In this document: positions 62 to 29,800 of the stretch, in pieces
How positions within the stretch are numbered: the first letter of the stretch is position 1
Layout of the letters: each line of letters begins with the position of its first letter
DNA from: Alitta virens
Lineage: Eukaryota; Annelida; Polychaeta; Phyllodocida; Nereididae
Direction: 5' to 3'
Assembly (NCBI GenBank): GCA_932294295.1
Contig: OW028573.1
Coordinates: 15,954,155 to 16,018,154, forward strand
Length of the DNA stretch: 64,000 nt
Translations under genes and position numbers: made by a program
The notes under the pieces: generated by a model
The model's database searches: none
Told to the model about the DNA's origin: nothing
What the model saw: the letters and a program-made list of their open reading frames with translations, nothing else

Positions 62-2224
62 ACCTGCCAGCTGGGTGGATATTTTCAAAAGTATTCCTAC
101 GATAGTATTCTGTTTTGAGGTCAGTAAATTCTCATTTCTGAGCTTCTTGTTAATCACCTTTTATTGTAAACCTTATAAGTAACTTTATTTTATTATTTAC
201 TTTCAGGCACACATAGAAGGAGTACCATTATATGCATCTTTGAAGAAAAGAAACTTGAAAAACTTATCTAAGACAATTATAAGTTCAACAATAATTTGTG
301 TTATAGTTTATAACTTCGTAGGGATTTTTGGCTACCTGACCTTTGGCCAGTATGTGAAAAGTGACATTTTAGCCAACTACTATCCGATTGATATTCCTGT
401 GATAATTGGCATGGCCATGGTGGCCCTCAAGTGTGTGATGACCTACCCTCCTGTCTTCTTCTGTGCCAGGTTGGTAAAATTATATTGAGGTCAAGGGATT
501 GCCTTTTGTTAGGGACTCTTCGGATAAGTCATTTGCTGTATTTGCAGTTTTGCTTTATTTGCCACAAAAATCAACCAAATTTGGCAGCAAGAACTCTAGC
601 ACAAGTCTGTCAACTATGTTATGACTTGAAGAACATCACTTCTGCAATTAAATAGGTGTTGAAATGGACTTTGAATGTATTGGCCTTGATCTATTTATTG
701 ATGGTTCACCCCAGTTATAGCTTCTTCAGGTAACTAGGTTGTACTTTCGAACATCATAAAATCGGTCTCAATAATCACACCACTGCTCAGTCACACCAGT
801 TTTCCTCCGGGTTTGATATGTAAGGTCGCCATGGCAGTAAGATTAATTTGACCCAGAACCAATATAACATTTGCCGTGTTTACTACCTGGTCAAAGCGAG
901 TTAGATGCTTAGATCTAATTAGGGAAGGAGACCTGAGGGGATTAATAACATTGAAGTTTGATTTCAACACACACGTTCAAAGTCATTGTCGTATTGATAT
1001 TGTTGTATCTCAGTAGTTTGCAGTGAACCCAAATATGATAAGACTTAAGTCCAAACCAGTGACCTTATCAGTTTACAATGCATGTAGTGCATGATAAAGT
1101 GATGTGAATATGGACCAGACAATTGAGGCAAATTATTGTTCCATCTTATCTGACAAATGACAATGGAACCTCATGATCAGGACCAAGTTTAAAGAATAAC
1201 TCGTAATTTCTTAATATTGAGATTGTTTCAATTCTGGAACTCTTTTGCATACCCAGTTTTTGGACCCATCTTATTAGTCGGGTGTTCTTAATATTATACA
1301 GCGAAACTCATAGACTAGGAAACTGAGCTTCAGAGGACTTCATCTGAATCTAGAAGTCCCACTGGCTAATTAATAAAGCACTGATTAAGGCAGTCCCTCG
1401 GCCTATGGGAGTCCTTGATTCTCTCACAAAATATGAATAATTTAATTTTGAACTTGTGAAATGTTTTATTTCAGGATGGTCATGATAAATGTGTTTGGTT
1501 CAATGTGCCATCGCCGATATGGCTGGTCAGAACGTCGTCAGAGAGTGGTGGTCACTGTGTTCATGTTTGCATTTAGCGTGGCCATGGCCCTGACTATTCC
1601 TTCTATAGGCAGCATCATCGCCCTGCTGGGAGGATCTGCTGCTCTCTTCATCTTTATCTTCCCAGGTAATGCAATTGATTAATCAATCAATTAATGAATG
1701 ATAGTTGAAGATAACCCAGATATTTACGTTCTCTCTGACGTTTTTATCAATCAATCAATCAATCGATCAATCAATCAATATATAAATCTATCAACCAACC
1801 AATCTACCAACCTACCCACTTGCCCACCCCTACCTACCTATCTATCTATGTATCTATCTATCTATCTATGCATCTACAAATAATAAATTAATTTAGATGC
1901 TGACAAATTAATGTTTGCCAATTATCGTAAAAATGCATTTAACATGTAGAGTCTTTTACCTCATTATTTAAGCATGCTAAATTCAAACGCATATATTCAC
2001 TATATATCATTGTCACATTTACCTTTGTAATTTCTCCATCTATTACAGGTCTGTGTCTCTTCTGTGCATATTTGTATGCACAAACATTCCAGGAAAAAAT
2101 GCTGAGAACGGCTGGTATTGTATTTGCCACGATTGGTGCATTTTTAATAGGGACAGTAACATCTCAAAGTATAATTAGATACACGAGTGGTGAATTCGAT
2201 TTAACAGAAGTAGAGTGTATATAA
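62..2224 (+). CDS. SLC38-type sodium-coupled amino-acid transporter, C-terminal part (gene continues upstream)
   Basis: Exons 62..119, 207..469, 1475..1665 and 2049..2224 (stop TAA 2222-2224). Phases fit throughout (1, 0, 2, 1). The joined peptide begins PASWVDIFKSIPTIVFCFE and continues with SNAT-family signatures: GIFGYLTFG in a transmembrane segment, then FCAR, MALTIPSIGSIIALLGG and FIFIFPG. It ends with two more hydrophobic segments and a short acidic tail. The family (amino acid/auxin permease superfamily, SLC38A8/A11-like) moves neutral amino acids across the plasma or lysosomal membrane; the substrate cannot be read from this part. The N-terminal helices lie before base 1. The donor at 470 is GTTGGT; a stronger-looking GTAAAA four bases downstream would break the frame. 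Possible poly(A) signals are at 2675-2680 and 3032-3037. SLC36 is a less likely alternative. Confidence 0.88.
1745..1870 (+). repeat. TCAA/TCTA microsatellite in the last intron of the transporter gene
   Basis: Runs of (TCAA)n pass into (CCAA), (ACCT) and (TCTA)n with scattered substitutions. It lies inside intron 1666-2048, between a coding exon and the last exon. The 61-residue open frame across it is low-complexity and not a gene. Confidence 0.85.
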
Positions 2225-3831
2225 TAGGTAGATAAATCAATTTAAAATTTTAAGTCAATACAGTATTATTTTTGTTATTTTTAAATGTCTCGTGTTTACA
2301 GGTTGAAGTATAAAACGTTTTAGTTTGATACATCAATTTATAAGGTTTAAATTAAGCTACATGTACGAGGTATCCGCATTACCATGTTTGGTAATTGTTC
2401 TATTCTTGTAATAACCTAAATTGAATCATCTATATAAATAGATATTTTGCATTTTATTAATTACAATATTTACCACACACTTTGTTCAAGATAAATCATG
2501 CTATAAGATGAGTGGATTATGTTTCATTTAAATCGAAAATATATCAGTGCTGAAGTGCGCATTAATGTTATTAATTTTCATATTTTATTTACTAAGTTTG
2601 CAATATGTAAGATATTTTTTCATAAAAACCTTAACCAGATTCGTTGTTGTCTTGCACGATGTGATGCAATCCTGATTAAAGTTGCATATTGAGGTTTGGC
2701 TTTTTCTTTTGTTTTCTGTTTGATTCTTGTTGCCATGGTGTCAAACAAGGTCCTACAATCTGAGCATGCAAGCATCTTTGTGTAAGTTATGTTAAGTAGT
2801 GCTCGCCGTCCCTCGTCTTAATATTGCAGGTCCCGAGACACCTACCCCAATATATAGACTGGAACTGGTTAGGCCCTCCTCTCCATCAGGACTGAACTGG
2901 CTAATTCGTTAGCTAAGTAAAATGGCCTTGTGTTGCTCGTTAATATCATTTATCTGTTTTAGTGCCTCTGCCAAACTTACGTATTGTGGTGAGAGGTGCT
3001 TGCTATTCAGTAGTTATTGCTGGATTACCTAAATAAAATTGTAAAAGAAAGTTATTTTTACATTATCTCAGCACAAATATTTCACCTCATTACTGCCTCT
3101 CTCTGATGAGCACCTCATCATTAAATTGGTGAATATTTAGTTCGATCTGTCCACTGAGTTTCTTTCTAATAAGACCACCTCACTATTAAAACCAGTAAAC
3201 GTGCCCCCAAAAATGGACATATTGGGAAGTTTTCACTTTATCTTTTTCTACTGTAAAATAGTCGGTTCTCTTTAACAGTTACTCTTAAGTCTTAATGAGA
3301 AATATCCTGGCACTTCCAACATCCACTGTAAAGACAGTCTGTGTTCTCTTTAACAGTTACTCTTTCTTAAAAAGATCCTGGCTCTTCAAACAGTTACTCT
3401 TTCTTAAAAAGATCCTGGCACTTCCAAAACCTTCCTAAGTTGGTAGTTAATCAATCTCAGGGTCTTCGCAGAACAAATAATCTTGTTTGGCACGAGTCTC
3501 AATAGGTTTTCTAAAGCTTTTTGTTGTATCACGTCAGACTCTCCATGCTGACATGCCAGAGCTGATGTATAGAAATTTTTTCCAATTAGTTTGTTATCTA
3601 TGTTTTTCTATGTTACACTGCTCTGCCTCTGAAGCACAGGGGTAAAGCAAGGAGATGTGAATTGGATATGAATAATATATAACACCTGTGTCTTCTTTGT
3701 TATGGAGTACTTGATTGCCTGACTTGGAACGTTTGGGTCATCTTGTTATTGTCCAAGTGCAGGGCGATCGACATCTAAGAGCCATTACACCTAATTACAA
3801 GCAACAAATTGGTGATCCAACAGTTGATAGG
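2225..3831. other. Intergenic: transporter 3' region and a short tandem duplication
   Basis: No gene is seen. The first part is probably 3' UTR of the transporter. Three imperfect copies of a unit of about 40 bp (sense AACAGTTACTCTT...ATCCTGGC) lie at about 3272-3319, 3350-3388 and 3389-3429. The last two are nearly identical and adjacent. Confidence 0.6.
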
Positions 3832-4181
3832 TACAGTGGCTGGGAGGGGACATGGATTTTTTTTAATATCTCGTTCGAACGAGATAACATCCTGTCCCAA
3901 TGAACAACTATCTTGTCCCAACGAAAAACTATCTTGTCCAAACGAGATAATATCTCGTTCAAACGAGATAATACACTCAGTTAAGCAGTATTCTGCTTCC
4001 CGAGCTACAACGTCCAGAAGAATGATAATAGGCCTATAGGCTATTTTCTCGTTAGAATGAAATGTTATCTTGTTATAACAAGATACTATCTCGTTAGAAG
4101 GAGATGTTATCTCATTGGAACGAGATGTTATCTCGTTAGAACGAGATATAAAAATGCCCATGTTCCCTCCCAGCCACCGTA
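3832..4181. mobile_element. Non-autonomous terminal-inverted-repeat element filled with palindromic TCTCGTT units
   Basis: The ends are inverted copies: TACAGTGGCTGGGAGGG on the left, and on the right a sequence whose reverse complement is TACGGTGGCTGGGAGGG. The repeat GATAGG flanks both ends directly (3826-3831 and 4182-4187), as expected for a target-site duplication. The inside is mostly a degenerate palindrome, TATCTCGTT-NN-AACGAGATA, repeated many times. Small open frames on both strands are translations of this repeat. No transposase is present. The superfamily is uncertain; with slightly different ends an 8-bp duplication with one mismatch can be drawn. Confidence 0.75.
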
Positions 4182-4187
4182 GATAGG

Positions 4188-4950
4188 AGATACTGACCTA
4201 GCATTTATTAAAAAAAATAAAACTAATTTTATATTTATTTAAACCTGCTAAACAATAGACATAATAGACCTATCTGAATTTTGAAATTTCTTTTATGCCA
4301 CTGAATTGCAGATAACGTATATTTGAAGATACTGTGTGCAATTTTTTTGTTTTTTACTGCAAATCAGTTTATTCGTTTTGCAGGCAAATTAAAGAAACTC
4401 AATAATTTTAAACCACAATTGTAAATGTGAAAGAAAACTAGTTCACCGAGGTAATTATGCACCAACTCAGTACTTAGCTTTTGTCACAAACTAGCTTATC
4501 TAGAATTGTTAATTTATATTTCTTTACATCAGCAGTTAATTTCCTTAATTGGAAATTTAATGATTAAAACTAATTCGAACAAGTAACATGTCAGTTTATA
4601 TGACGCACGATCAGAATTGATTAATTGATGTATTTAAAGTTAACGAGTCGGTAACAGGTGCTTGACTAATTAATGACAGGAACAGCAGTGAGCGCTGCTT
4701 CTGATGGAGATTGCTAGGCGCCTAGGGAAATGATTTTGGCTGGCATAATTCCCAGGTGATATTCGTCAGAATATTTATGAAAATTTCTAACGAACACCCC
4801 TCCCCCCCCCCCCAGCCATGCATACGTGTCCTTACAAGGATCAGACAAACATGGCTGCCATAGAAATACACACCTTTTCAGGAAATGTGGATATGAAGCT
4901 TCAGGAATTATAGTATATTCAAGCGGACGACTTGATTTATTATATGCAAA
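4188..4950. other. Intergenic, putative promoter side of the TSP1/SRCR gene
   Basis: AT-rich sequence with a C-run near 4799-4813. The first coding exon of the TSP1/SRCR gene starts at 4951. I see no gene and no convincing core-promoter motif. Confidence 0.4.
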
Positions 4951-7900
4951 ATGGAGATCTTTCTAAAAGTTGTAATTTTATTCATTTTTAACTTTCTTAC
5001 CCTTTTTGTATCACCCGCGCAAATTCACCAATGGCCATCACCACTAGTGGATTCAATTCAATATGGCAAAGGATTTACTTCCACGGAAAATCATTTTACT
5101 ACAATAAAACCAGTATATCTTTTGTCTCAGTGTGAGAAACAATGCTTGAGTTCGTCAAAATGTGTTTATCTCACTTTCGACTCTAAAAATGAAACTTGCA
5201 AACTTTTTTCGGATTCCCCATCAAAGACTTCCATCAAGGAGGGATCCAACTCAACTGCTTTGCTGCTGAGGTCAGAGATTAGCCAACCAAAGGTAGGCTT
5301 ATATACCTGTTGATTTGATGACCCAAGAGTTAAAAGAATGGTAAAAAACGTTGTAGGGTTGTATACCTAAATAAATTAAATGAATATTCTTAAAACCCTT
5401 TTTTAATATTCATAAATTAAGTTTCGATAAAGGTTGATAATAGCTAGTTCATTAATAACCTTGTACACAAAAAGAGACATAAAACTTGGTTAGGGGTTAA
5501 AAAATGACAAAGGTTTATACTTACAGTGATAAACCTTCTTCACTCTATTTTTAAATTTGCCAAAAACGAAGTAATTACCCTATATAATATTTCCATGTTA
5601 TTTTGTCTTCATAAAGAAGTTATTCCCTGTACACAGTTTGTTGGTTTAGGCAATTTTGTATAAAGTATTACATTTCTGAGAGCAATTATGCAGACTCTGA
5701 AGCCCGAAAAGAACACGACCTACAGCAGTTATGTAGCAAGACTCCTAACTAAACCTTTTGTGCCTTGTTGAATTAACTTGTCTGAATTCTGTTTCTTGGG
5801 TTTTGCTGACATCTCTGTGTAATAACACTTTTTTTTCTTTTCTTTTTCAGGACTTCATCTTTGTCTGCAGCAGTTCCCCGTGTAAGAATGGTGGACGTTG
5901 CTTGGAAGGAGATGGGGTAAATGGAACGTTTTTCCAATGCGTTTGCCCAGCAGAGTGGTCAGGCTCCACTTGTGAGGTTAAAGGTAAATGTAAAAATGGC
6001 AAAGCTTCTTACTTCCGGATGATTTAATATCAAAAGTGGAAGTATTAAATCAGGCTGATCAGAGATAAGGTTTTCCATTGCGTTGTTTTTATGGGCTTTG
6101 AGTTTTTGCGCCTAATAATTGATAATAGACCAAAAAGATGTTCGTATAATTGCACTCGTTATGATAATTGTACTTTAATCGGAACAGATGTATTCATAGG
6201 CGTAGGAGGCACCTTTCTTTTGGGGAGGGGGGGGGGGGCAAAGGTCATCTTGCCCGAATTTTAAGGCTTGTATTAGCACCCCTTTATGCCCGAATTTTTC
6301 AACTTTTTGCCCGAATTTTAGGCTTTTCTGGACACTTGGGGGGGGGGCGGCAATTGCCCCCCCCCCCCTGCGTCCCACCTCCTACGCCTATGGATGTATT
6401 TGCATCAAACAACGGTGATCAATGCTGTCTTTACTAAACAAACATTATTGGCGGAATTGAAGATTCGAAAGCTTTTATTTTATTGTAGAGGAAAAGCCCG
6501 TTTGGACAGACTGGGAAGAATGGAGCCCCTGTTCCTCTCAATGTGGATCCGGTTGGAAAAGACGAAAAAGGACCTGCATCCGGCCGGACACCAAAGTAGT
6601 CGTTGGTCAGTGGATGTGTCCAGGCAATGACCAAGAGTTCGCTACCTGTACATCTGGACAGTGTCCAAGTGAGTTTTTATTTGAATGGAGAGATGTAACC
6701 CCCCAAGAATACATAGTCATTTCGGCGTCACTGAATAATCCAAAACGGTAAATGATATTAATTCAGTATACTGAACCTCGCTGTTTTACAGTAGTAGCAA
6801 TACACAGGATGTGAAAGTTGGTTTTCTCAGGTGTGACACTGTGAGGTGGTTTAAGCAAGGTGGTCTTGTAGTGAGACTCCATGAATTGTATTTTCATGAA
6901 GCTAGCAAAGTATTTTGGACTCCATAAACCAGCTTTTGGTCGCATGTTTTTTATTTTTTTTCCAACTTCGAATCTGCCGTTCTATATATGATTGTGTATA
7001 CCATAAAACATGTATGACCACGTGGAACCTGAGTTTTAAGTGGAATTTTGTCTATTCAGAATTGCTGCCCTGGGGAGAATGGTCCTCGTGTAGTTCTGAC
7101 GTCACCTGTGGAGAGGGGGAACAAACCAGAAACAGAAGTTGCGTCAGCACCGGAGGAGGATGGCCATGCATAGGGCCTGGACAGGAAGCTAGGCCTTGCC
7201 AGTCTATCATATGCAATGGTACGCAATCTTATGCAAAACCTAAATTTAATTTTGGCTGCCAAAAAACACGATTTTACATATAGAAATGTTTATATTATTT
7301 TTTTTCTATAACATCTCATATACTGTAGTATTGTAAAAACATTTTAAGCTTTTCTTTCTTGGATAATAAGGATAATTTTACCTGTATCAAATAAATTGAA
7401 TCGAATTAAATTTAATATAAACGCTCGTTTTATGAAAAAGTCACAGGTGTCAATGAACTTTGATTATTGTTTGGGTTTCCTATTGCATCATAATTGACAG
7501 GCGATCAAACTTCGGCGCTAATTGTTTGCCAATAAGTGTTTCATAACTTCCTTGTATGCTGTGCAGACAATTAGACATCTGTTTTTGTTTTGTCTACGCG
7601 TCGAATTACAGACAGTATAATAGACTATTAAGATAGCGCAAATATTCAATTGTAAAGATAAAGCAACTCACGGTTGTCTACAAATTATTTTTCTTAAACG
7701 TTTGAAATATTTGAAGCAAAACGAATTATTGTAAAAATCTAATGATTTTTAGCTCCCGTAAAGTTGTCGGGTGATGGAAATGCTTACGGAAAAGGCCAAG
7801 TTGAAGTCTACGACCATCAGACACGCAAATGGGGTGCTGTGTGTGCCGATAACTGGGACACAAAAAACACTGATGTAATATGCAAGCAATTGGGTCTTGT

Positions 7901-13900: not shown

Positions 13901-16900
13901 CTGTAGCCATACTTGTGGGGATGGGACCCGAGCCAGGAACAGAACTTGTGAAGGCAGAATAGGGGCAGGCAAGCCTTGTGAAGGAGATGAAATTGAAACA
14001 GAGCCTTGCACCACCTCATGCACCAGTGAGTAGACAATAATGATGAACTTCGTTGAATCAATAACTGATATACTTAATTTCAAATCAGCTTTGGAAGATA
14101 AACATGCTCACAGTATACCACAACAAGCTGAAGTACTTAGATGCATTGGTGGATGTACCAAGTCCAACGGATATTAACAACCTAGCTTTAGCGTTTGCAA
14201 TTGTGAACAGTTTTCGAGTATATAAAGTTGTTCCACTTCATACATAATTTTGCCATACATTTTACAGAGCCTGGCGAATGGATGGCCTGGGGAGAGTGGG
14301 GTCGGTGTTCTGTTACTTGTGGTGGGGGTAAGAGGGAGAGGCAGAGGGAGTGCAATATGACCACATGGGGCGACAAGACAGACCCCTGTGAAGGCCTCTC
14401 AACAGACACAACCACCTGTAACAGCTACTCTTGCACACCGCGTAAGTACATTATATTATTCCATCATTGCTTTATGTCAGATTTCTAAAGTAAATTCAAA
14501 TTCAATTTGAAATCCACTACTAATACCTATACCTTATCCTATATCCATAAAATAGCAGTTTAATTCCATCAAAACGTGAAAGGTTTACTGCCATTTAACT
14601 AACCACATAAAAACAAGTTAATCTTGATTCAGTCTAATTTACTTGATACTTATATTAGTGATATAGTTACACTTGAATAGACGTCTGGTTCCAATTGAAT
14701 GGCCAGCTTAACACGATGAGCATATACCCTGGTACATGCAAATTGACGAGACACATTACATGTACTTGATAGTTTGATGTTTTTTTGTTTTTTATAGTTG
14801 AAACCAACTGCGAATTATGGAAGGAGAGAGGTATGGAAGAGAATGCCTATGCCCAGCTCGATATATATGGCACCGGAAATGTCATCATATGGGTCTTCTG
14901 TAACGTGGAGGGAGAAGGCTACACTGAGATCCGTGAGTAGAAATAATAATGATATACTTTATTTTGCAGTCACAGACTGGATTGTAAAATAAATAAATAA
15001 AATTCCCTAAGACAATATATCGCATACATAGTAAATTTTAAAAATGTTCAAGAAAGAAACGGACATAAATCTGACTAAAATAAAAACAAAAAGCTTTATT
15101 AAAACTTGACTCATAAAAAGTTGAAAAAACAAAAAGGAATAAAACTGTCTTTAAAACGAGAGGGGGTGGGAGTAATGATCTTATCACCCAAACAGAAATT
15201 ATTTCATTCTTAGAAGAGCTTAACCTGAAGGAGCTAATGCCGCCAACTCCAACGCCACCTACCGAGTGATGACGATAACCCGTCTGTTATTAGACAAAAA
15301 GATGAGCTAAAAAAAGAGTTATCACAGGTACATCATTGAATTGTTTCTCTTTTGCAGGCACCAAAGCCACTGGGGAGATCAAGGTGGAGGGTCACGAAGG
15401 CAGAGGAAATTTCGAGAGGTTTATTGAGTATAATGCAACAAGCGATCAACAAAACCTTATTTTGGGATCTGCCCGCTACTGTCGTCAGTACCTGGCTTGG
15501 CGGTGTCGATCGTCCTACATGATTAACCCCAACGCCAAAGGAGGAAACACTGACCCCCTTGCCCGTATGACCTTCTGGGTATCCCGGTGAGAGTTGGTTC
15601 TTGTTTTCCATGATGCAGAAATTTGCCTGATTTGGCAACAGTTCTTGCATTTTCAGTTTCAATTATATTCAAGTTCCTATAGGTGACTGAGATCATTAAC
15701 TGTACTAAAAGAACCAGGTATTAATCAAAGATTTCATTCAAATAATCAGAACATGTAGAACTTTTGACGTTATATAAGACCAAACGGTTTCCATGGTATT
15801 AAGAAGCTTTAAGAGAATTTAATAATAGGCCTAGTCTGTCGTGAAGTTTTAAATTTTCTTTCAACTACGTCATTTGTCAGCTGTTTTCAAAATTTAAAGT
15901 TTTCACAGATAGCTATGTGACCTCTGGCTATTCAAATCAACGTGACTGTTATCGATTAATATGATGATTTGTAACTATATGTGGTGTTACAGCTACTTAA
16001 AATATCAAAATCATCTCAAATTTTATGAGATATATCTCTACTATGTACTTTTATTCCACATATTATCCATGGTTTGCTAACATGTCACTTCCCCCCCCCC
16101 CCCATGGTCGACTTTCTAATAATTATGGCTCATAAGTTGGGAGATGCTAGATATGCATATATATTGCGAGCGCCACGAAACGGTCAGAAACCATTTGATG
16201 GGCAAAAATCTCCAATAACTCTGTTAATATCCATCAATGGGCAATACAATTAGTTATACTCCACTTATACTGTTTTCCAATTGTTCTGAGTGGGCAATAA
16301 CCAACGAAAATCTTAGTTAACTCCCTCCTGAGTGCAAACTGAATTTTTTGTGTGTAATAAAGGCATTAAAAAAAAACCATCAAACCAATTAGTAAATATG
16401 CCTAATGGAGTATAAGTTAGTTATATCCCTTTATATTCGGGAGTTAACAAACATTTTTGTTGGTTATATCCCTCCGCCTTCGGTGTCTGGATATAACCAA
16501 CAGAATTGTTAGTTAACTCCCGACTATGAGGGATATATATTACGTAATCCATTGTTTTTCATCACGCAAAACAAATTTTGTAAAATAGGAAGACTGTAAA
16601 TAGTCTGGCTCCTAATTATAAGTGAACTGCGCGGAGCTTGGGCAAGCCACGGCTTTACTTCGAATGAAAAATATGAAAATTTTATGTGCTAATAATTTTT
16701 GTTTCACTAGAATAACAGAAACTGGTTTTATTTCAGCAAAGGTGATGACATGTCCTACTGGCCAGGTGGAGATCCTACTACCATTGGTTGTGCTTGTTCT
16801 CGTAACAAAAGTTGTGACGGAGGAGCCAAGTGGTGCAATTGTGACGCTGGTGATGACACGTTCCACATAGATGATGGTTATGAGGATGACAGGGAACTTC

Positions 16901-19900
16901 TTCCCATCAAAGCTGTGCGTGCTGGAGACACTGGTAAGTCCTTTTCTAGCTGAGCAGGCCAGTGATGGTGGGCCATAGCAAATGGTGTTGACAAATTTTT
17001 TCTAAAGATTTCGTCAGCAAATTTAATGACTTGTATGACAATGAATACAAGGCTGAATAAATTGTTAGATTCATATGCACAAAATGTAGAATCAGTACAT
17101 ATTTGACGAGTTCAATTTATAGTAATCAATATTACTCCCGGCTTAGATACAAGTCCCCTGTCCACAAGACTGGGTTACAACATCATAAATGAAAAAACTT
17201 TGACTCATATGGGAACTAGCTTTTTAAAAAAAGTTTGCCACACAAAATACACCTGCTCTAGGTTTACACATAGCTGTTTTCTATGGTGTCGAACTCAGAT
17301 ATGGTCAATTTCTTCCAATTTTACTCAATTTCTGTAGCATATTTGAATTCACATTTCGTTGATAATACATGACAGCATGGCCGCCTAGTTCCGCCAAAAC
17401 TCACAAGAGGGCTCCAGCGACGTTTCAACGCCCCTAGTGAATAATAAGATTCATACGGAATAGTGCTGCCAAGTCCTTAGTACCGTCAATTTGACATTTA
17501 CAATACACTAAAATTACATCCACATGATTTCAATTCAATAACAAGCAAATGGAGCAAATTATTCACCGATTTTTAACAAAATCTGAACAGGCACAGTGGC
17601 GCAACCATCATGTGACTGCTGGGGGGCGTTGCAAAGGCAAAAAGCATGAACTAGCAAAAGTAAATTTATGAAAATGCTTCTTAAAACGATGTTTCTAATG
17701 ACTTTTTCATGAATATGTGAGTGCAATGCAATAGTTAACAGAGCAGTCCTTCAGTACATAACGACAAAATAAGGTATGCTAACATGTTTGTTAAAAAACT
17801 ATGTCAAAAATGTCAAATTCCCAGAATTCCTATGCAAGTCGTTCCGACCCTACATCGTATCTAATGCAATGTAGGTCAGTTCTGGCTACTCCGGGCTATG
17901 CCGAGTGCCCAGCTAGGTGGCCTAATGGTTTGGCATCTGCCAATTTCAAATTGGCCAGATCTGCTGAAGGTCCGAGGTTTGATCACCAGCTTGGGTACTC
18001 TGCATTAGCAACATCCCAGCTGGATGTCAATCGCATGAGACATTAAATTTGAGATGCCTTGCACTCTGTGTCTACCATTGAGACATTGACATATATATAC
18101 TATTGACATCACCTCAGCATTACATCTGCCTCTGGCAGCCTCAGATTAAGTAGCATTGAGTCATTTGACATATATAGACAATATAGCCCAGATAACAAGG
18201 TCAAAGGTTGGCAGACAAGGTTGGGCCAATGTCATTTTGCACATTGGTAATGCCAACGTTGGTACCATGCTGTGCCCAATGTTGGTATGTTGGTTTAACA
18301 TGTGTTGGGAACGTAAGGAGAACTAGGCCATTTATCACATTTTAATTTTTGCTGATTCAAGTTATAATGCTAAGTGTGATTTAAAGGATTCTCAACCATT
18401 TCATGTATAACAAGTAAATTATTTTTCAGAAAAAAAGTGGCCCAGTTCTTCCTCCGGTTAAGCCACTGTCACACGGGCCGGTTGTGCCGTAGTGAAGCCG
18501 TAGTATTACGTAATAGTTGCGGAAATCGCTACCCGGCCGCAAGCTGGCGGCCCCAATACGGCCACCCGTGGATACCCGGGGATACCCGGCAAGCACCAGT
18601 GGGACCCTTGGCCCAGCCGCGAAACCCGGCCCCGGTAGCCGGTTGTGCCATGCTTGCATGGCACAACCGTAGAAATCTCACGGGTGAAAAAAAAAAAAAA
18701 AAAACACGTGGAAGCCGACGGGTGACCCGTGGAAGCCGACGGGTGACCCGTGGAAGCCAGCGGGTGGCCCGTAGAACCCGGCGAATTATCCGTCCCTAAT
18801 TTCACCCTGGCGGCTTGTTGAGGGGTTCTACGGGTAACCCGGCGGCTTTCACGGGTAACCCGCCGGCTTTCACGGGAAACCCGCCGACTTTTTGCTACCA
18901 GCGTCAGCGTAGGCAGGGAGGTATATACTTTAAAAGGCTGCTGCTCCTCTAATATTAGTCCGATTTTCCTCAAATAAAGACTGCATGGCAGTATAGCTCA
19001 TACTGATTCCATACGTATTTTCGGATTTAAAAAAACCCGAATATTAAGCGAGATATTTGTCTGAGAAGGCAGTTGTCTTGCGGTGGCTGCTGCTCCATTT
19101 ATATTAATCCGATTTTCGTCAAATCAGGACTGAATTGTAGTATAAATCATACTGATTCCATACGCGTTTTCGGATTGAAAATAGACCAAATATTAAGCGA
19201 GATATTCGTCTGAGAAGGTAGCTGGGTTGGCGGAGGCAAACAGTGGTGCTCTCGCAGACGTCCGCGCCCTGACTATATCAATGCAGGGCTGAGCCCTTCT
19301 TTAAAAGGCTGCTGCTCCCCTAATATTAGTCCGATTTTCGTCAAATTAAAACTGTATTGTAGCATACTTCATACTGATTCCATCATGTTTTAATTTGAAA
19401 ATAGACCAAATATTAAGCGAGATATTCATCTGAGAATGCAGTTCTCTGGCGGCGGCCAGGTGCTCTGTGTATGGTCATGACTTGAATGGTGTGGTCAATA
19501 TTTTTGACCATGATATATATACATTGTTTGGATGAGCTTTATTGCAATTCATTTCTACTCATTCTGCCAACTGCCATGACCGTTATGTCAATTGCTATTA
19601 GCATTTTGAATGATACAAAGAATGGGTGTAGAGAATACAGCAAATGCTCAATGCATGTGTCAATTGCCTAATTGCCTAAATTGGGGTTCTTTGACCTGTC
19701 ATTTCATAGTTTGTTCAAAGATGACACAGTAATATGACATTGTCTTGATTGTCATTCACAATTACAAAAAGATGTAATTGCTTTCATTAATTAAAAACAT
19801 TGTATTCTATTGTAATTACCAGGCAATGATTATATTTGTATATTGGTTTTTTTTTTTATACATGTGAACATTCTTATCTTTTTGTGTTAATTTGAATCTT

Positions 19901-22900
19901 ATTGTGATAATAAATTATTATTTTGATCAGTATTTGTGTATATTTTTGTAAAATTTAAATCTAATATTAATATTGTAATTAGTATTTGTGATTTGATCTG
20001 TGATTTATTTGCTATCTTTTATGTACTTATATGTACCAAATATTAAGCTAGATATTCTATATTATATAATAAGCATATAAATCTATCTGTCTCTCTAAAC
20101 TATCTGTCTATCTACATATCCGATTTTCGTGAAATGAAGACTGAATTATTCAGGGAAATGTGTAGAATATATATAATAGTTAAAGGTGGGGAAAATTAAT
20201 GGAGTATACTAGGCACAAACAAGAATATTCTTGTTAATAAAGTTAGTAATACCTTATAGAGTATAGATATGTAGATAGACAGATAGTTATAAGATCTTAA
20301 CCTAATAATATGTTACTATCAATAATTCATTGATTAGTATTAATAAAAAACGATAATAAAAACAATGTTTGTTTGCTTGTTGCCAATAAAATTCCGACTT
20401 GATAAAGATGTCTATGGAGCTATAACAACTATCTATAGATAGATATACTCTAGTTTAGAGTAATCATTTTAGATATTTATTTCATTTTATATAAATTATC
20501 AATATTTCGTTGTTGTTTCTGAAAATAATCCAACTGGAATTAATATTGATATTGCATGTTCCATCCATGATCAAAACAATCTCCCTCTTTAATATGCATA
20601 ATAAACAGGAATCAGTTGAAATTCAGAATTTCAATTAATGCTTGTGATCAATGATAAAAAAGCATGACTTACCCCATTCTTTGTATTATTCAAAATGCTA
20701 ATAGCAATTGACATATATAGGTTAATTGACTTTACAAAACCAAAGGAAAAGTCCTTCCCATTGGCCAGTTGGCAGAATGAGTAGAAATTAATTGCAATAA
20801 AGCTCATCCAAACAATGTATATATAATGGTAAAAAATACCATACCATTCAAGTCATGTACATACACAGAGCACCATGCTGCCTTCTCAGACGAATATCAC
20901 GCTTAATATTTGGTCTATTTTCAATCCGAAAACACGTATGGAGTCAGTATGAATTATACTACAATCCAGTCTTATTTGACGAAAATCGGACTAATATTAG
21001 GGGAGCAGCAGCATTTTAAAGAAGCGCTCAGCCCTACCTGCATTGATACAGTCAGGGCGCGGACGTCTGCGAGAGCACCACTGTTTGCCTCCGCCAACCT
21101 AGCTACCTTCTCAGACGAATAACTCGCTTAATATTTGGTCTATTTTCGATCCGAAAACAGGTATAGAATCAGTATAAACTATACAACAATTTAGTTCTTA
21201 TTTAACGAAAATCGGATATATTAGGGAAGCAGCAGCCTTTTAAAGTATACTCCTGGAAGCTGCGAGTTACTCCTACTACTCGCCGGCTTACTCCTACAAC
21301 CCGCCGAGTAACCCGTAGAACCCGCCGAGTCACCCGTAGAACCCGCCGAGGCACCCGTGGAAGCCGCCGAGGCACCCGTGGAAGCCGTCGAGGCACCCGT
21401 GGAAGCCGGCGGGTGACCCGGCGGGTAACCCGTTGCGCCCGGCGGGTGCTGCCCCGCCCCTTTTTGCTGCCGCCAAACCGGCGGAAAGAGCTGTTACATA
21501 ACTATTACGTAATACTACGGGTTCACTACGGCACAACCGGCCCGTGTGACAGTGGCTTAAGGAGAACTGGGCCATAGGAGTAGAGGAACTGGCACCTCCT
21601 GTCAGTTTATAACAAACTGAAAATCTGGAACAAATATTTATGTTTACATAAAGAATTATCAACAAAAATGAATGCACTAAAAGAACAGAGCTTTAATGTA
21701 AAAACATGTGCTGATTATAACAATATGTTTATTTCTACTCTGTACTCTGTAATTTTCGTCAATGAACAGTTCTATTCAAATCAAACATTTTACTTACTGA
21801 CACCAAAATCAAAAATTTTACTTTATCAGAAAAAGAAATATAACAAATGGTTTCTTGCTTTCAGACATGCACATGATATCACTTAGGAGTCATGTGACCA
21901 AATTTTAGGGTAATACCCATATTAATTTTAGCTGTAGGGAGGGTGACCCAGTGCTTCTTACATTTCCATATACAACCGTGCTATTGAAGGGCATACCATG
22001 GTACCAACTACAGTACCAAAGTTGGCGTTGGCTGTTCGGCCAACACCTCGCCTATGTGCAAAATGACATTGGCCCAACATTGTCTGGCAGGCTTTGCCCA
22101 ACATTGGCCCAACTTCTGCATGTAATCTGGGAGGTTGTTATACTTCCATAACATAATAAAAGTTGTTATGGGGCAGGATCAGTCAAGACTGTCAAGTGTC
22201 AAATTGTCTAACAAGCAAAGCTCTCATTAAAAAAGAGACCTGTACCAGATTTGTGTGATAGCATATTATAATAGTCAATAAGATTCTGCAGAACTAAGTT
22301 TTGTAGGATAAGGAAAAATTCTACTTTTAAGATTATATAATTTACCTGTCAAAAAAGAAAATATATACATTCCCTAGGTGGGATTCGTATCCTAGTTCCC
22401 CCAGCCCTACAATGAACAGCCCAACATTTCTGGGAAAAATTGCTCTGAGTGTGTGTAGGTCATTTGCTGCATCAACTGGAACAAATGACGGACGAACAGA
22501 CGAACGGATGCATGGATGTCCCCATATACATTATATATAACCATGTTGTTTTTAATTAAAATTCCATAGTTATCAGTTCAATTATGCCTCAAACATTAAT
22601 TTATGCATTTTGAATATGGTAACCAAGGTTTTTTGCCAAAATTAGCTGAAACTATGGCCATACAGCACACTTCCCCAAACAGAGCAAGGATTGCCTGATC
22701 ATGTCATTCCTAATATGAACATGCACAAAAAGTGATGACAAAACTTCACCAGGCATGTCCTCAAAATTTTAATTTGGATTTTAGAAGTACTCTTAAGCAG
22801 TCAGATATATTCTATAGGTTGAGATCTGGTACAAAAAAATTAGTTTCTCTTCTAATGATTACACTCTTCTGTTTTCAGGGGATCCTGGGGAGGTGGGATA

Positions 22901-22991
22901 TCTGACCGTTGGCAATGTGCAATGCAAGGGTGTGGGCACGGATCAGGATTTCATGTACGACGCTTTCCCCAATTATTATTCTTTCGACTAA
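4951..22991 (+). CDS. Secreted mosaic protein: PAN/apple-EGF-TSP1x2-SRCR-TSP1x7-CASPR-like fibrinogen module
   Basis: Seventeen exons: 4951..5292, 5851..5983, 6489..6668, 7060..7218, 7753..7914, 8134..8286, 9005..9172, 9705..9878, 12430..12594, 12866..13030, 13220..13387, 13864..14025, 14268..14441, 14798..14932, 15358..15586, 16737..16933, 22879..22991; 2979 bases, about 992 residues. Exon 1 has a hydrophobic signal peptide and a cysteine-bearing PAN/apple-like stretch. Exon 2 is an EGF domain (CKNGGRC...[12 protein letters not shown]). Nine exons each encode one TSP1 repeat (for example [14 protein letters not shown]). An SRCR domain with six cysteines spans two exons (7753-8286). The last four exons give [14 protein letters not shown] and RAGDTG blocks like the fibrinogen-related segment of CASPR/neurexin IV. 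There is no transmembrane segment or GPI-like tail, so it is probably an extracellular matrix or innate-recognition protein. Nearly all introns are phase 1. A possible poly(A) signal is at 23434-23439. The function is inferred from domains only. Confidence 0.9.
6195..6392. mobile_element. hAT-type MITE in intron 2 of the TSP1/SRCR gene
   Basis: The 198-bp element has perfect 15-bp inverted ends (CATAGGCGTAGGAGG). It is flanked by the 8-bp direct repeat GATGTATT (6187-6194 and 6393-6400). An 8-bp duplication fits hAT transposition. The inside carries long G and C runs and repeated GCCCGAATTTT motifs, with no coding capacity. Confidence 0.88.
9879..12429. other. Long intron of the TSP1/SRCR gene
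   Basis: A 2.55-kb phase-1 intron separating the first four TSP1 exons (and SRCR) from the five later TSP1 exons. It holds a SINE-like fragment near 11030-11150 and AT-rich filler. I see no coding exon in it. Confidence 0.6.
11030..11150 (+). repeat. SINE-like dispersed repeat fragment
   Basis: Contains ATTATGTCTGCCTCCTGCAG followed by GGTCATATAAGC. The same block occurs at 18115-18165 and 31045-31085, and as the reverse complement at 63580-63625 and, more diverged, at 60940-60985. Confidence 0.6.
16290..16540. repeat. Nested inverted repeats in an intron of the TSP1/SRCR gene
   Basis: GTTGGTTATATCC and GGATATAACCAAC (about 16459-16501) form a 13-bp stem around a short CG-containing loop. 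Outside it, GGGAGTTAAC at about 16439 pairs with GTTAACTCCC at about 16514, and a further TTAGTTAACTCCC lies near 16313. It resembles a small foldback or MITE remnant. No target-site duplication was found. Confidence 0.6.
17895..18180 (+). mobile_element. tRNA-derived SINE, best copy of the family in this window
   Basis: The head contains box A-like TGGCCTAATGG (17918-17928) and box B-like GGTTTGATCAC (17976-17986), spaced as in a Pol III tRNA promoter. The body matches the reverse complement of 63540-63720 (for example CTGGATGTC.ATCGCATGAGA and ATCTGCCTCTGGCAG). It ends just before the foldback element at 18187. It does not fold as a full tRNA, so it is not called as a tRNA gene. Confidence 0.7.
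18700..18895 (+). repeat. GC-rich minisatellite of about 21 bp, left arm of the foldback element
   Basis: Tandem units of the type CCCGTGGAAGCCGACGGGTGA with variants, each itself partly palindromic (CCCG...CGGG). The matching array on the other arm is at 21265-21470. Confidence 0.8.
21265..21470 (-). repeat. GC-rich minisatellite of about 21 bp, right arm of the foldback element
   Basis: Tandem units of the type ACCCGTAGAACCCGCCGAGTC and variants. It is the inverted partner of 18700-18895. Confidence 0.8.
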
Positions 22992-23433
22992 ACAAATTTG
23001 ATCATCAAATAATACGAATCACGTACTTGCATGATATTTCAACCTGCAACTCAAGAAAAGTGATACTTCTCTTTCTCAAATCTTCAAATCACTTTAGTTC
23101 ACTAAATTCTCTAAGTTGATTTAACTCTTGAAAGGAAAGAAATGAAAACCCCATGATCTTACTTCATAAAAAGTAATTATTAATAATTTTGACCAGATAT
23201 TACGAACTATTGCTGTTTCTTCCCATCTTTCCAAATTAACTCATTATTTCCTTGATTCAATTATAACTAAAATATTTGTAGCAGGAATAATATTAACTTC
23301 CATTAATTTTGTTCTAGAAACAAAAATGAATCTGATCACAATGTTATATTTCTAGATGTAGACATTCTAATTTTAGTATCAACTAATGTAAGATTCTTTT
23401 CTGACAAGAAATTTCGGCTGCTTGTAGAAAATC

Positions 23434-23879: not shown

Positions 23880-26800
23880 TTATGCCTGGAAGTTGAGGAA
23901 CATTTTGAATTCATCAAAGTCCAAAAAGCCATCTTTGTCTAGGTCATACCCTGCCATCAATGTTCCTATTTCTTCTTCCTTGTATCCCTGACTTGTCAAC
24001 ATCTCCTTGAATTCATCATAACTGATTCGGCCATCTTCGTCACGGTCGTATTTGGTGAACTCGGCCATTAATCTCTGTCGTCTGAAAGAATAGAGTAAGG
24101 TATTAGTGAGTATATTAAAAATTATGTTAACTGTGCATTGGCTTTAATGGTCACGTGATACATAATAAAGTGTAGATTTGTGAAAAATGCCAATCTCGCG
24201 CACGCGCATAGAGGAGCAAGCAATTTTCACGTTTTAGTACGAGATTCTTGTGGTCAACGTCATTTTCAGCGTTGTAAATTCGAATAGTTAATGTTATGGT
24301 TATGTACAACTTGGCTTATCGGCATGGGCCCCGTTTTAGGGGGGGGGGGGGAGGGACAGGGGGACAAGTCCCCCCCCCCCCCCCCCACTTTTTTTGTACC
24401 AACATAACGATTTGACTGTTGGTGTCCAGAATAAAGGTCAATATGTCCCCCCCCCCCCCCACATTTTGAAATGAAACGGGGCCCCTGCTTATCGGCCTTG
24501 TTGTACATTGACATTTTCGGGTGTACATATCTCCATGTCTCACATGTAACCATTGTATAATCATGGAGACAAGAGTATGTCCATGGTATAATGTATCAAG
24601 TGTTTATATAGCTCACTAGATACAACATTTTGAGTTCTAAACTTACTCTTCTTCGACCATTGAATAGAACTTGAGGAATCCTTCATAGTAGAGTTTTCCA
24701 TCATTGCCATCCTGGTGGAAAGTCTCAATAGCCTTGGTACACTTTCCATCAGAGAACCCTAAGCCTTCTTTAAGAATCTTCTCTGCCTCCTCTTCAGATA
24801 CATAACCCTTGCCCTCGGTGTCAAAATGGCGGAATGCAGCTCTGATTTTGTTCTTTCTATTAAGGAAAATAAAAAGAGAAGTCGTTAATATTAGTCGGGT
24901 AAACTTATAATACATTCTGGTATATAAAGCAAAAAGTGTTATTAACTTCCTCGGAAATGTAGCCTACATGTAACGAAGATATTTTGTATACGAGCTACAA
25001 TATATATATAGAACAATAATTGTTATTTTATAACACAAGGAAAAAATGAAATTATTTAAAGATACATTGTAAAGCAATCATCATGAATGGCAAACATTTT
25101 ATTTGAAACAAAATAACGGCGAGCCCTTTTTCTAGAATATACGTGACGCACATTACAGTGTTTTTGGTCAAATTTAACATGCCTTTTATTAACCTTGAAA
25201 AATAAAATAAAAACAGTGGCGTAGCTGGACCTTCTGGCATGGGGGGGGGGGGGGGCGGGGCATTGGGGCCAGGGTCTGAACCAGGGGGCCGACTGAAAAA
25301 TGTTTTCTCAGCATTTAATCGAGCTGTTATCTGACTCGAGGTGATTCTGCGATGAACCTTATGAAAAATATTTGATAACTTACATATATACATATGTACC
25401 AGAACAGTGCATGGCAGGACTTAAATTTTAGTGTCAAAGCAATGGTCATTGCTGTGCTGCTACAATTCAACATGGCAAAAGGATGCTAGCCAATAAATGA
25501 ATGTCAGTATAGTTAACTGTAAATCTAAGGTTCGTATATATGCAGGTTTCTCCCTGATTAACATGTTTCACATTTGAAAAAATAATAAGTATTGTTAAAA
25601 ATTATGTGCAGCCTAGTGGTGCCAATTGGATCACAAAAAGACACTATATTATTTCAAATTATTATTAATCTCGAATGGGGGGGGGGGGGGGCAGGAGATA
25701 ACTGTTTAAAGGAATGTTGGGTCTGTTGTCAAGACAGTAACACACCAGGTGCATAAAAATTCATAATTCTCAAAATATAAGTATGCCATACAAAAATCCA
25801 AATTATGAACGTGATCGCTGGTTCCTAGAAATATGCATCTTACTTTTATCATTTGATATAATCTGATAAAGTTTGCATTAATTTTCGCCAAGTAAACACG
25901 AACAATAGAGAAAGTAAAATTGTCACAAAGTGCAGAATGCTTCCTTGTTTAGTTATTCCATCACTTCTGTTACCAAAATGAAGAAAAAGTAAATACAGGA
26001 AAACGCAAGGGAAATTAGGTTTACCGCGAGGAGGGCCAATTATATCAACCCATGGGCTAAGCCTCTAGGTTACAGATCAATGTTATCAAAACTAAATGTT
26101 TTAATACCTCTCTTCCACAGCAATGTAAAATTCAGCAAACTCCATATAGGATACGAGGCCATCCTTATTGCGGTCATATCGGGCCACCATTGCCCTTGAC
26201 CTTTCTGCAGTGAACCCTAACTCCTCCTGCAGGACCTCATGGGCCTCTTCTGAGCTGATCATGCCATCTTGATCTTGGTCATACCTTCCGAACTTCTCAT
26301 AGATCTCCAGTTTTCTAATAAATACATTGAAAAAAAAAAAATAGATAAATTTGAATGGTAATATTGAAATGACTTGGATTAGTTGTACGAAATCGTCACA
26401 AAGAACCAGCTGGACGACTTGTTTTGTTATATAAGAAATACTAAACAGAAGTTCAGCAGAAAATGTAATATTTGGTAACTTAAAAACTCGCACACTGGGA
26501 TTTTGGCAAACTCCTACATTGATTATTTACGAATAACCTCACTAATAAAAACGGTGCTTTTTAAGGAACTTTGTAAAACACCTTGCTTTCTTATTCAAGT
26601 CATAATCATTTAAAGACCAAAGTGGCTACTTTTATCTTTGGTCAGAAAGCGTAACAAATGTTAACAAATATTTTGCATTATAGACTGATTAAACTATAAA
26701 AAGGTTGACTGTGTGATAACATATTTAAATATTATTTTTGAATAATTTTATAGGACTCCAGGTTGTTTCTCTACCCAATATTTCCACTTCAATTTCAGTT

Positions 26801-29800
26801 AACCCACCCAAAGCACAGTGCATTATTAACTATTATTAACTATAGCTATTGAGATCTTTGACATGAGAAATTATGGTCTTACACCGACACTTACTTGGCC
26901 TGCACCTGTTGGTAGAACTCAACAAACTGCTCATAATTGAGTTTGACAAACTGGTTGAGGAGTCTCAGGGCTGTGGTTGGTGAGATCTTGAGTTCGACTT
27001 GGAGAGCCCACTGAGCCTCTTGCAGGGAAATCTGCCCTTTGCTATCATGGTCGTACCTCTGGAATTTCTCTCGGAGATCTGCCATTCTGCAAGTGAACAT
27101 GAGAAATTATGGTCTTACATAAATATGATACTAATCATTGTTGACATCAATGTCAAAAGCAATGCAGCTGGTTTAAAATTAACGTGTTTGGGTTTTGCAC
27201 TACGATATCTCATTAAGCATTTCAATAGGGGCCACCTCTTAAGACCTAAAATATTTATGAAATTTTCCACCGAATGCACATAAATAACAAAGTCATCTCA
27301 TACTTCAAGCCCCTATAACCAAAATTTACAGGTGCATATTTATGAAAAAGTCGAAATTTTCCAAATGCCCTGCTGTTTAAGTTTTGAATTTAAAGTATAA
27401 TTTTAAAGAAACTATGATTGTTATTTTGTCATTGACATCTTTTCTATTACATCATAAAATAGCAGTTCCAGGTCTACAATTTAGTATTTACTTACTTGTG
27501 GTCACTGTCAGTGATATGTGTCTCATTTCGAGGAACGAGGTCGAGAAATTGTTCAAATTTGATTTTTGATTCTGGCTGAAGAGTGTGACTGGTTAATATT
27601 TCCTGAAACACAAGAGACAATGAGTTAGATTTACCTGTGGTCCTGCTGCTGGCAACAAGCATCCCCTGTCTAGCACAACAACTGAATTGTCAAGTGACAA
27701 AAATTGGCATCACGTTGGGCAACATGTTCATTCAAACACCCTCAGGCGAATATACCTGGTGCTAGTCTACTAGATATTGTATAAATTTGTATTATTATCT
27801 TCTTTTTTTCTCCAGTTTTTAAAAGTATATCTTGTTATATTATATCCAAAATTACCATCAGTATACTGCAGATCCTGTATCTATATTGTCGCAGCTGCCA
27901 GCTACAGACTATATTTCTGATTGGTTTCTTGGATTCCAGGAATTTCTAGGAATTCGTGCTTCTTGGAGCTTGCAAGAAGGCAGAACTCAAGAGGCTTGTG
28001 TCAAGTTGGAACTCTCAATTACTAACACAGTCAACTCCCATTAAAGCTCATTGAAGTCAGGAGATGCCAAACCAACCTGTTTATCTTCTTTCTGAATAAC
28101 ATCATTAATAGGGCTATCTCACTATCACTACCACAGGGTCTACAATTCAGGATGGCCAGTATTGACTGCATGTTGACTGTGTTTGTTGTAGCTGCTCATG
28201 AGCATAATCGCAACTTTATTCCATAAGTTTATCTCAGCTGAGACTCTCACCTCAACTTGATCATCTGAAAGTCTGTAGCCAATTTTTTTGACGATCGCTT
28301 GTAAGTCTCCAGCAGCAACCATGCCTTCTTTGTTGTAATCATAGCTGTTGAAGGCTCTTCTGTACTTCATGACATCGGACTGAGCGAAAGATGCGTTTCG
28401 TTTGACCTTCGCTGACCTTCGAGGTCGGACGTCTGGTTCGTCCTCCATCTGAAACAGGAAATGTATTTTTGATACATTAAAACGACATATATATCATTCA
28501 ATTTTGACAAATAAAAGTAGGCGCCCTATAGAATAGTTCTCCTTTTAAGAAAAGAATAAAACATATAGCAGATGCTCAAAGAGGCCAGATGACAAACAGC
28601 TAAGCGGAATTGTATATTCTTTACAATGTAACATTATAATAGTTAGTATAGCAGTATAGAATGTGGTTAAAAAAACGCACACAGATAATTACACAAGAGC
28701 AAAATAAAATGTGTCAAATACAAACAGCCACAACCAATTCCAAAGTTTGACAGCCTTGTGAATGACCAGAGAGTTGTATCTTAAGGTTATTTGTTTCTTA
28801 GACATAGCATTTCAGTAGTATCCTTGAGGTATAATAAGTTTCTATGAACACCTGCGTAGAGAAATGTCTTTTTAATGTCGTTACGTTTTTACAATTCATT
28901 TTTAGTAAAATGACGTATGATACATATTTCCCAAGAATAAACCTGTCACAGGCAAATGCCGGATATACATAACATATGTACTATTCTTGATCTTACTGGT
29001 TATGTACTATTTATGTACTGCCACATTGCATGAATGTCATTGTCATTGTCAATGATTTATTCAGGATACTACGCGCAGATAGTGGAATTCCATGTACTGA
29101 GCTAGTAGTTGCATTCTTTTGAAAGACAAACATAGATGTATCTATCCATTAAGGAAATTGCATTTCTTACATATTATGAGTGACATATAATTTCCTTGCA
29201 TCCTTGAGTAGACATCACCTCACAAGCCCTTCTATCGAAATTGGAAAACCTTGATGTTCAAGTAAATTTAAATTGAGCCACTGAAACCAAAATCCATTTC
29301 ATAAGCATTTCGTATCCTTCAAGCTCAGGGTTTCTATGCATGTGACAACTGTAGACTTTTTACAAAGTAGTTCATGTCGTAAAAAACGCTTAAATTCACT
29401 TTTTAAATACCTTTTTTTACCGTATAATGTATGAGAATAATAACACTGTGCAAAAAAACACCTACCAGGCTTTTGTGGTGTGAATTTTCACCTTTGATGT
29501 GACACGGTCACCATGAGAACACAACCAAGGTCAGGGTGGATACCACAGACAACAGTTACTGTAAATTGTGAGTTATTTCCTACCCTGGCAGCTTGCAGAT
29601 CAGTGCAGTGACGTAAGTGAGCATAATAGAGGGCTAACCTTACATTTTCGCAACTGGGTGTACTCAGAGACTCAGCATGAAGAGGCTTTAAAAATGGCTA
29701 AAAAATAGAGGCTCAACTGCTAAGGGTTGTAAATTTTGTAAACAGCATCAGAAAATATGGACAATTTAAATGTATATGGATGTTAACAGTATGGGGTACT

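Follow-up and report, generated by a model that had tools for sequence, protein, structure and literature searches.

The last intron of a plus-strand gene in the annelid Alitta virens contains a palindrome-like region at positions 18187-22131 of the window, that is, of the whole stretch of 64,000 nucleotides analysed here (assembly GCA_932294295.1, contig OW028573.1, forward-strand positions 15,954,155 to 16,018,154; C1:15954155-16018154 in the searched genome of 671,116,069 bp). The intron (16934..22878, 5,945 bp) opens with a GTAAGT donor at 16934, closes with a CAG acceptor ending at 22878 and leaves the frame open across the join of the flanking coding exons, 16737-16933 and 22879-22991, in a gene model inferred from the sequence, signals that support the placement in the last coding intron given by the original prediction. 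Upstream open reading frames (ORFs), which are probably exons of the same gene, match PAN, EGF and TSP1 above the Pfam cut-offs. As for the proposed TSP1/SRCR gene, the TSP1 part is borne out, since each of the four ORFs selected as TSP1-like scores above the cut-off of PF00090, while SRCR is represented by half a domain in one ORF, below the cut-off (E 0.001). The last three exons (15358-22991; 178 cysteine-containing amino acids, aa) match nothing in Pfam at E up to 1, and a PDB sequence search with the C-terminus of the protein returned none at E up to 0.1.

The region had been described as one giant foldback element, nearly the whole 3.9 kb of which was an inverted repeat with 2-kb arms. 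In a self-comparison of 17800-22600, long inverted matches are indeed found in mirror order, centred about 20150-20165: 18199-18247 with 22051-22099 (49 bp, 88%; the end match of the outermost repeat described below), 18438-18518 with 21500-21574 (81 bp), 18823-19072 with 21103-21344 (250 bp, 75%), 19085-19573 with 20766-21237 (489 bp, 86% over 495 columns) and 19584-19626 with 20673-20715 (43 bp), along with an extra match of 23 bp near the centre. The best of these scores 572 bits, and the highest score in 20 sequences shuffled in 3-base blocks is 33.7; the inverted repeat is therefore real and lies far outside what chance would produce. Moreover, the CCCAGAT ends, the TTGGGCCAATGTCATTTTGC part, the 21-bp GC repeats and the CCGATTTTCGTCAAAT and ACCAAATATTAAGCGAGATA modules are all present as described. 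The extent of the pairing was overstated, however, as about 912 bp of the left side, out of roughly 1,970, have a partner on the right, and most of 19627-20672 is loop. An inversion introduced by assembly is unlikely, because the same structure occurs on many contigs and PacBio data, used for the wpAliVire1.1 assembly (PMC10352625), stand behind the published sequence.

The region 18187-22131 consists of three nested mobile repeats, abutting families with separate copies elsewhere, and the segments are in mirror order because each of the nested repeats has inverted ends. The outermost is a short repeat, with a left fragment at 18187..18306 that carries the CCCAGAT end and a right fragment at 21968..22131, whose inner boundary is inferred and whose ATCTGGG end lies at 22125-22131; a solo copy on contig C5 (L033), read by eye, is without the other two layers. 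The middle repeat, in plus orientation, comprises 18307..18457, delimited by alignment, and 21558..21967, with an uncertain right end (21955-21967). It belongs to a separate, more diverged family, with identities of 71-95% among the matches listed, one copy of which on contig C6 spans about 1.2 kb by match coordinates. The point at which the inner element is inserted is unbroken in six of nine fetched copies of the middle repeat, and these paralogous empty sites read TAA in five cases and TCAA in one. From the separate copies of the layers and the empty sites for the innermost, the order of nesting can be read: a CCCAGAT-ended repeat was invaded by a second repeat, and the second by a young foldback of 3,097 bp, all within one intron.

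A single composite foldback element of 3.9 kb, with CCCAGAT ends and 2-kb arms, would also place its segments in mirror order over 18187-22131. It is nevertheless extremely improbable, as the inner 3,097 bp recurs genome-wide with its own target-site duplications (TSDs) and unrelated flanks, the outermost repeat occurs without the inner parts, and the middle repeat has empty sites; the ends and outer arms assigned to the composite thus belong to two other repeats. The search for further copies and empty sites that had been proposed for this locus yielded both, copies across the genome and paralogous empty sites within the middle repeat. We consider it highly probable that three repeats are nested here and that the innermost is a young nonautonomous PIF/Harbinger foldback with coding relatives in the same genome.

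The inner foldback transposon occupies 18461..21557, and its copies, TSDs, terminal inverted repeat (TIR) counts and coding relatives define it. Its left TIR (18461..18518, +), which starts with AG, and its right TIR (21500..21557, -) are each 58 bp long and differ by one mismatch; they are bordered by a TTA on the left (18458..18460) and a TAA on the right (21558..21560), two TSDs unlike in the central base. Inward of the left TIR lie blocks of the 21-bp GC minisatellite (18707..18891, within the part common to longer coding relatives), three modules of about 145-149 bp (18936..19451, +) and the left inner arm (19451..19626, +), followed by an AT-rich core or loop of about 1 kb with approximately 25% GC (19627..20672). 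The right inner arm (20673..20882, -), two modules (20872..21250, -) and the right 21-bp GC minisatellite (21267..21408) complete the right side, where the alignments of many other copies suggest an additional module compared with the window copy. Long inverted arms, internal tandem repeats and a middle domain, the marks of the foldback class, are found together in this element alone among the three layers, and the claim of a foldback in the last intron accordingly holds for the inner 3,097 bp only.

This element is abundant in the genome. A query with 18187-18700 found at least 39 other places with 96-98% identity over about 240-250 bp (40 candidates scored of 2,884), and all 39 matches begin at the left end of the inner element or no more than about 12 bases from it; a query with 18450-21565 found at least 29 other places at 91-98%, extending from the element start to query base 2519-2563 (39 scored of 4,762). 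Exact TIR ends, TWA (W being A or T) followed by AGCCMCTGTCACACGGGCC, number 618 + 607 = 1,225 genome-wide, and the reversed-pattern control gave none. The 100 ends listed, all on contig C1, can be joined into 42 pairs that face each other, 990-5,446 bp in length, with 16 ends left single. A 39-bp word from the transposase of the coding relatives occurs 71 + 88 = 159 times genome-wide (control 0) and, by coordinates, inside seven of the 42 listed C1 pairs. Two tandem members of 4,681 bp, each with this word, share a single TTA between them at C1:12367033-12376403, and a similar pair with a shared TSD is located at C1:2480670-2487331. At another locus (L025, ~1300-5500), unrelated ORFs (559 aa and shorter) follow about 300 bp of the foldback left end, and the right end was not found within the 7 kb fetched.

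Eight of the C1 pairs are longer than 4 kb, of which four were fetched (L083, L084, L085 and L086). Three of them (L083, L084 and L086), 4.7-4.9 kb in length, have TIRs 96-100% identical to those of the window copy and share a subterminal part of about 430 bp including the 21-bp GC repeats, at 84-86% on one side and 76-81% on the other. Each has one ORF of 448-449 aa, which contains DDE_Tnp_4 (PF13359) by Pfam in L083 (E 8.2e-31) and L086 (E 3.3e-31) and is the same ORF by eye in L084. In addition, L083 and L086 have an uninterrupted convergent ORF of 528-545 aa, which in L084 is split into 311 and 249 aa; MADF (PF10545) was matched by Pfam in that of L083 (E 3.3e-6), and the second ORFs of L084 and L086 are similar by eye. 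Because longer relatives with the same ends encode DDE_Tnp_4 and a MADF/Myb-like protein, the family is PIF/Harbinger and the foldback its nonautonomous relative. The remark that there is no transposase is correct for the window copy and fails for the family, whose DDE_Tnp_4 proteins in L083 and L086 are encoded between the same TIRs. A PDB sequence search with the transposase gave no match at E up to 0.01. The foldback's TIR is absent from all four further PF13359 loci examined for it (L079-L082); one of these (L079) has AGGGGGTTTCACAC ends and is also TTA-flanked. The fourth fetched pair (L085, 1-5271) is a foldback copy holding a 603-aa minus-strand ORF that resembles a reverse transcriptase by eye, which indicates that the foldbacks themselves are hit by other elements. 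On contig C5, eight DDE_Tnp_4 matches of identical score, each in a frame of 524 aa, follow one another along 200 kb (C5:16887773-17088258), perhaps as a tandem array.

The defining features of PIF/Harbinger elements are a TWA TSD, a short TIR, a DDE transposase and a Myb/SANT-like second ORF (PMC4482050). The TIR of the foldback, 58 bp and AG-initial, agrees with the usual length below 60 bp and first base A or G, and the transposase and second ORF are found in the longer relatives and are missing from the window copy. TSDs were read in 37 copies with both ends: the window copy, 16 of one set of 20 and all 20 chosen from the full-element query list, with L009, L014, L025 and L027 dropped since they gave no right end. 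Among these, TAA/TAA and TTA/TTA occur 13 times each, ATA/ATA once, TTA/TAA six times and TAA/TTA four times, so that TWA stands on both sides in 36 of 37 copies, with ATA in one, as expected of a PIF/Harbinger 3-bp TSD; C is at -4 in 23 and G at +4 likewise in 23 of the 37. Membership of a TTAA-specific superfamily, Kolobok or piggyBac, was weighed against this assignment: with the boundary moved by one base, six of the 37 copies, the window copy included, have TTAA on both sides, and Kolobok ends are described as 5'-RR/YY-3' (PMC9587614), as in the foldback (AG/CT). Yet a perfect 3-bp TSD is seen in 27 copies as against six fitting TTAA, and the transposase encoded by the relatives is DDE_Tnp_4, so that such a membership is almost certainly wrong.

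The 10 copies with imperfect TSDs in the both-end set differ at W only. Disagreement between the two sides thus falls on the centre in 10 of 37 copies and on the outer positions in 0 of 74 (Fisher p 7e-6), a distribution under which mutation after insertion was judged an unlikely cause. Among the C1 pairs, whose search pattern demanded TWA and made outer-base differences impossible, the TSD centre disagrees in 8 of 42. The two sets overlap by three insertions (the window copy, L012 and L018), and in their union 75 TWA insertions include 16 with a central mismatch (14 of 73 when the tandem pair with its shared TSD is set aside). Among the mismatched insertions is the window copy, with TTA on the left, TAA on the right and TAA as its paralogous target.

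Gene conversion between copies that reached into the TSD is a possible cause. A tentative alternative, which we regard with considerable doubt, is that the family carries the donor TWA into the new site as single-strand overhangs, in a piggyBac-like manner, instead of filling a 3-nt gap; a donor/target mispair at W would then be resolved independently at each end, and the left and right TSDs would disagree only there. In a simple model of such carry-over, with random resolution and A and T equally frequent, one third of insertions would be mismatched at steady state. This prediction fits 10 of 36 (p 0.60), and the observed values are low in the C1 pairs (8/42, p 0.05) and the union (16/75, p 0.027; 14/73, p 0.009). 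For mPing, assays in yeast led to the proposal that the TSD is cut in a staggered way that leaves 5' overhangs (PMC4561436), which speaks for carry-over, whereas 45 of 46 mPing insertions from matched TCA donors in yeast were in TTA or TAA (PMC4561436), which argues against it in mPing. If present genome-wide, the central-base mismatches would be a sequence record of how a PIF/Harbinger transposase cuts and joins; they are the part of this locus most worth following, the mirror structure being ordinary nesting.

The original prediction had also raised the prospect of a long double-stranded RNA (dsRNA) in the pre-mRNA. According to RNAfold, the two arms would form 573 pairs with each other, the longest helix being about 310 bp with interruptions, and a long imperfect dsRNA from the intron is physically plausible on this model. 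The arms were compared across 17 copies with a unique inner-arm piece, alignments below 80 bases being dropped and L011 and L028 having no left piece. Left arms of different copies are 98.9% identical (91 comparisons) and right arms 97.1% (136); a left arm is 93.3% identical to its own right arm (14 copies) and 93.7% to the right arms of other copies (224 comparisons, range 89.4-99.1), and the arms within the inner element are 86-93% alike. Arms are therefore not matched inside a copy, as a left arm is about as close to its own right arm as to those of other copies, and concerted evolution of the arms was ruled out by the same comparison. The arms had diverged by the time the family spread, their complementarity being inherited and not maintained.

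A functional hairpin, whose intronic dsRNA would be retained for editing by ADAR, processing by Dicer or control of the host gene's splicing, would be in keeping with the predicted helix and with the location between coding exons. These arm identities speak against it, as the arms are not homogenised within copies and selection for a hairpin is thus not apparent, and members of the family occur at hundreds of sites, which leaves nothing specific to the host gene. Moreover, an Rfam scan over 17000-23000 gave no match at the gathering score, and a function of this kind is accordingly improbable. Most likely the foldback is simply carried along in the intron of the host gene.

As a nonautonomous PIF/Harbinger member, the foldback has retained the TIR and the subterminal 21-bp repeats found in the 4.7-4.9-kb coding relatives. 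The DDE_Tnp_4 and MADF/Myb-like proteins would most likely bind these in trans, excise the foldback and reinsert it at C-TWA-G targets. In the coding relatives examined (L083, L084 and L086), no counterpart of the inverted-module interior was found; this interior may have taken the place of their genes in a progenitor, which subsequently spread. Several points weigh against this account. The action of the transposase on the foldback is deduced from shared ends, and the mismatches at the central TSD base in 16 of 75 insertions are unexpected under plain 3-bp gap filling. Furthermore, the TSDs established are those of the inner element alone among the three layers, and the 1,225 ends mix coding members with foldbacks.

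Sea urchin TU and Drosophila FB are foldback elements with a middle domain between long modular inverted arms that contain tandem repeats. Tetris and Galileo share this architecture with the Alitta virens element (PMC4079207). Most foldbacks are apparently members of Mutator, although there are exceptions and Galileo falls in the P superfamily, and a transposase-coding copy of Tetris was not found, according to the same source (PMC4079207); unlike these Mutator and P foldbacks, the present one is PIF/Harbinger with a coding relative in the same genome. It resembles PIF/Harbinger elements (the PHIS superfamily) in its TWA TSD, its A-initial TIR below 60 bp and the DDE and second ORFs of its longer relatives (PMC4482050), and differs in that the window copy lacks both ORFs and has a foldback interior, and in that the relatives' second ORF matches MADF (PF10545). 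Medicago MtPH-A6-4 is also PIF/Harbinger with subterminal tandem repeats, some at both ends in opposite orientation (PMC2213677), but it is a plant element with 60-bp repeats, whereas the annelid element has 21-bp GC repeats, 150-bp modules and inner arms. Rice mPing/Ping (Tourist/PIF) has TTA/TAA TSDs as well (PMC4561436); mPing, however, is a miniature element, and the foldback displays natural, frequent TSD mismatches. In literature on foldbacks and Harbinger, as represented by the titles and abstract openings of some of the papers matched, no animal PIF/Harbinger foldback family was found. The foldback is ordinary in kind, but an animal PIF/Harbinger foldback whose genome also holds its likely coding partner is uncommon, most foldbacks having been assigned to Mutator. 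In addition, the locus shows that nested repeats with inverted ends can look like a single giant palindrome, a caution for scans that search for palindromes or dsRNA.

Elsewhere in the window, a 21-bp repeat, TAATATCTTGTCCAAACGAGA, forms two opposite blocks at 3864-4147, and similar units are present in L009 at about 3920-4150. Adjoining the 3' end of the host gene, several EF-hand-like minus-strand ORFs extend over 23880-28493; these are probably exons of one gene, and that at 26101-26526 was confirmed with Pfam.

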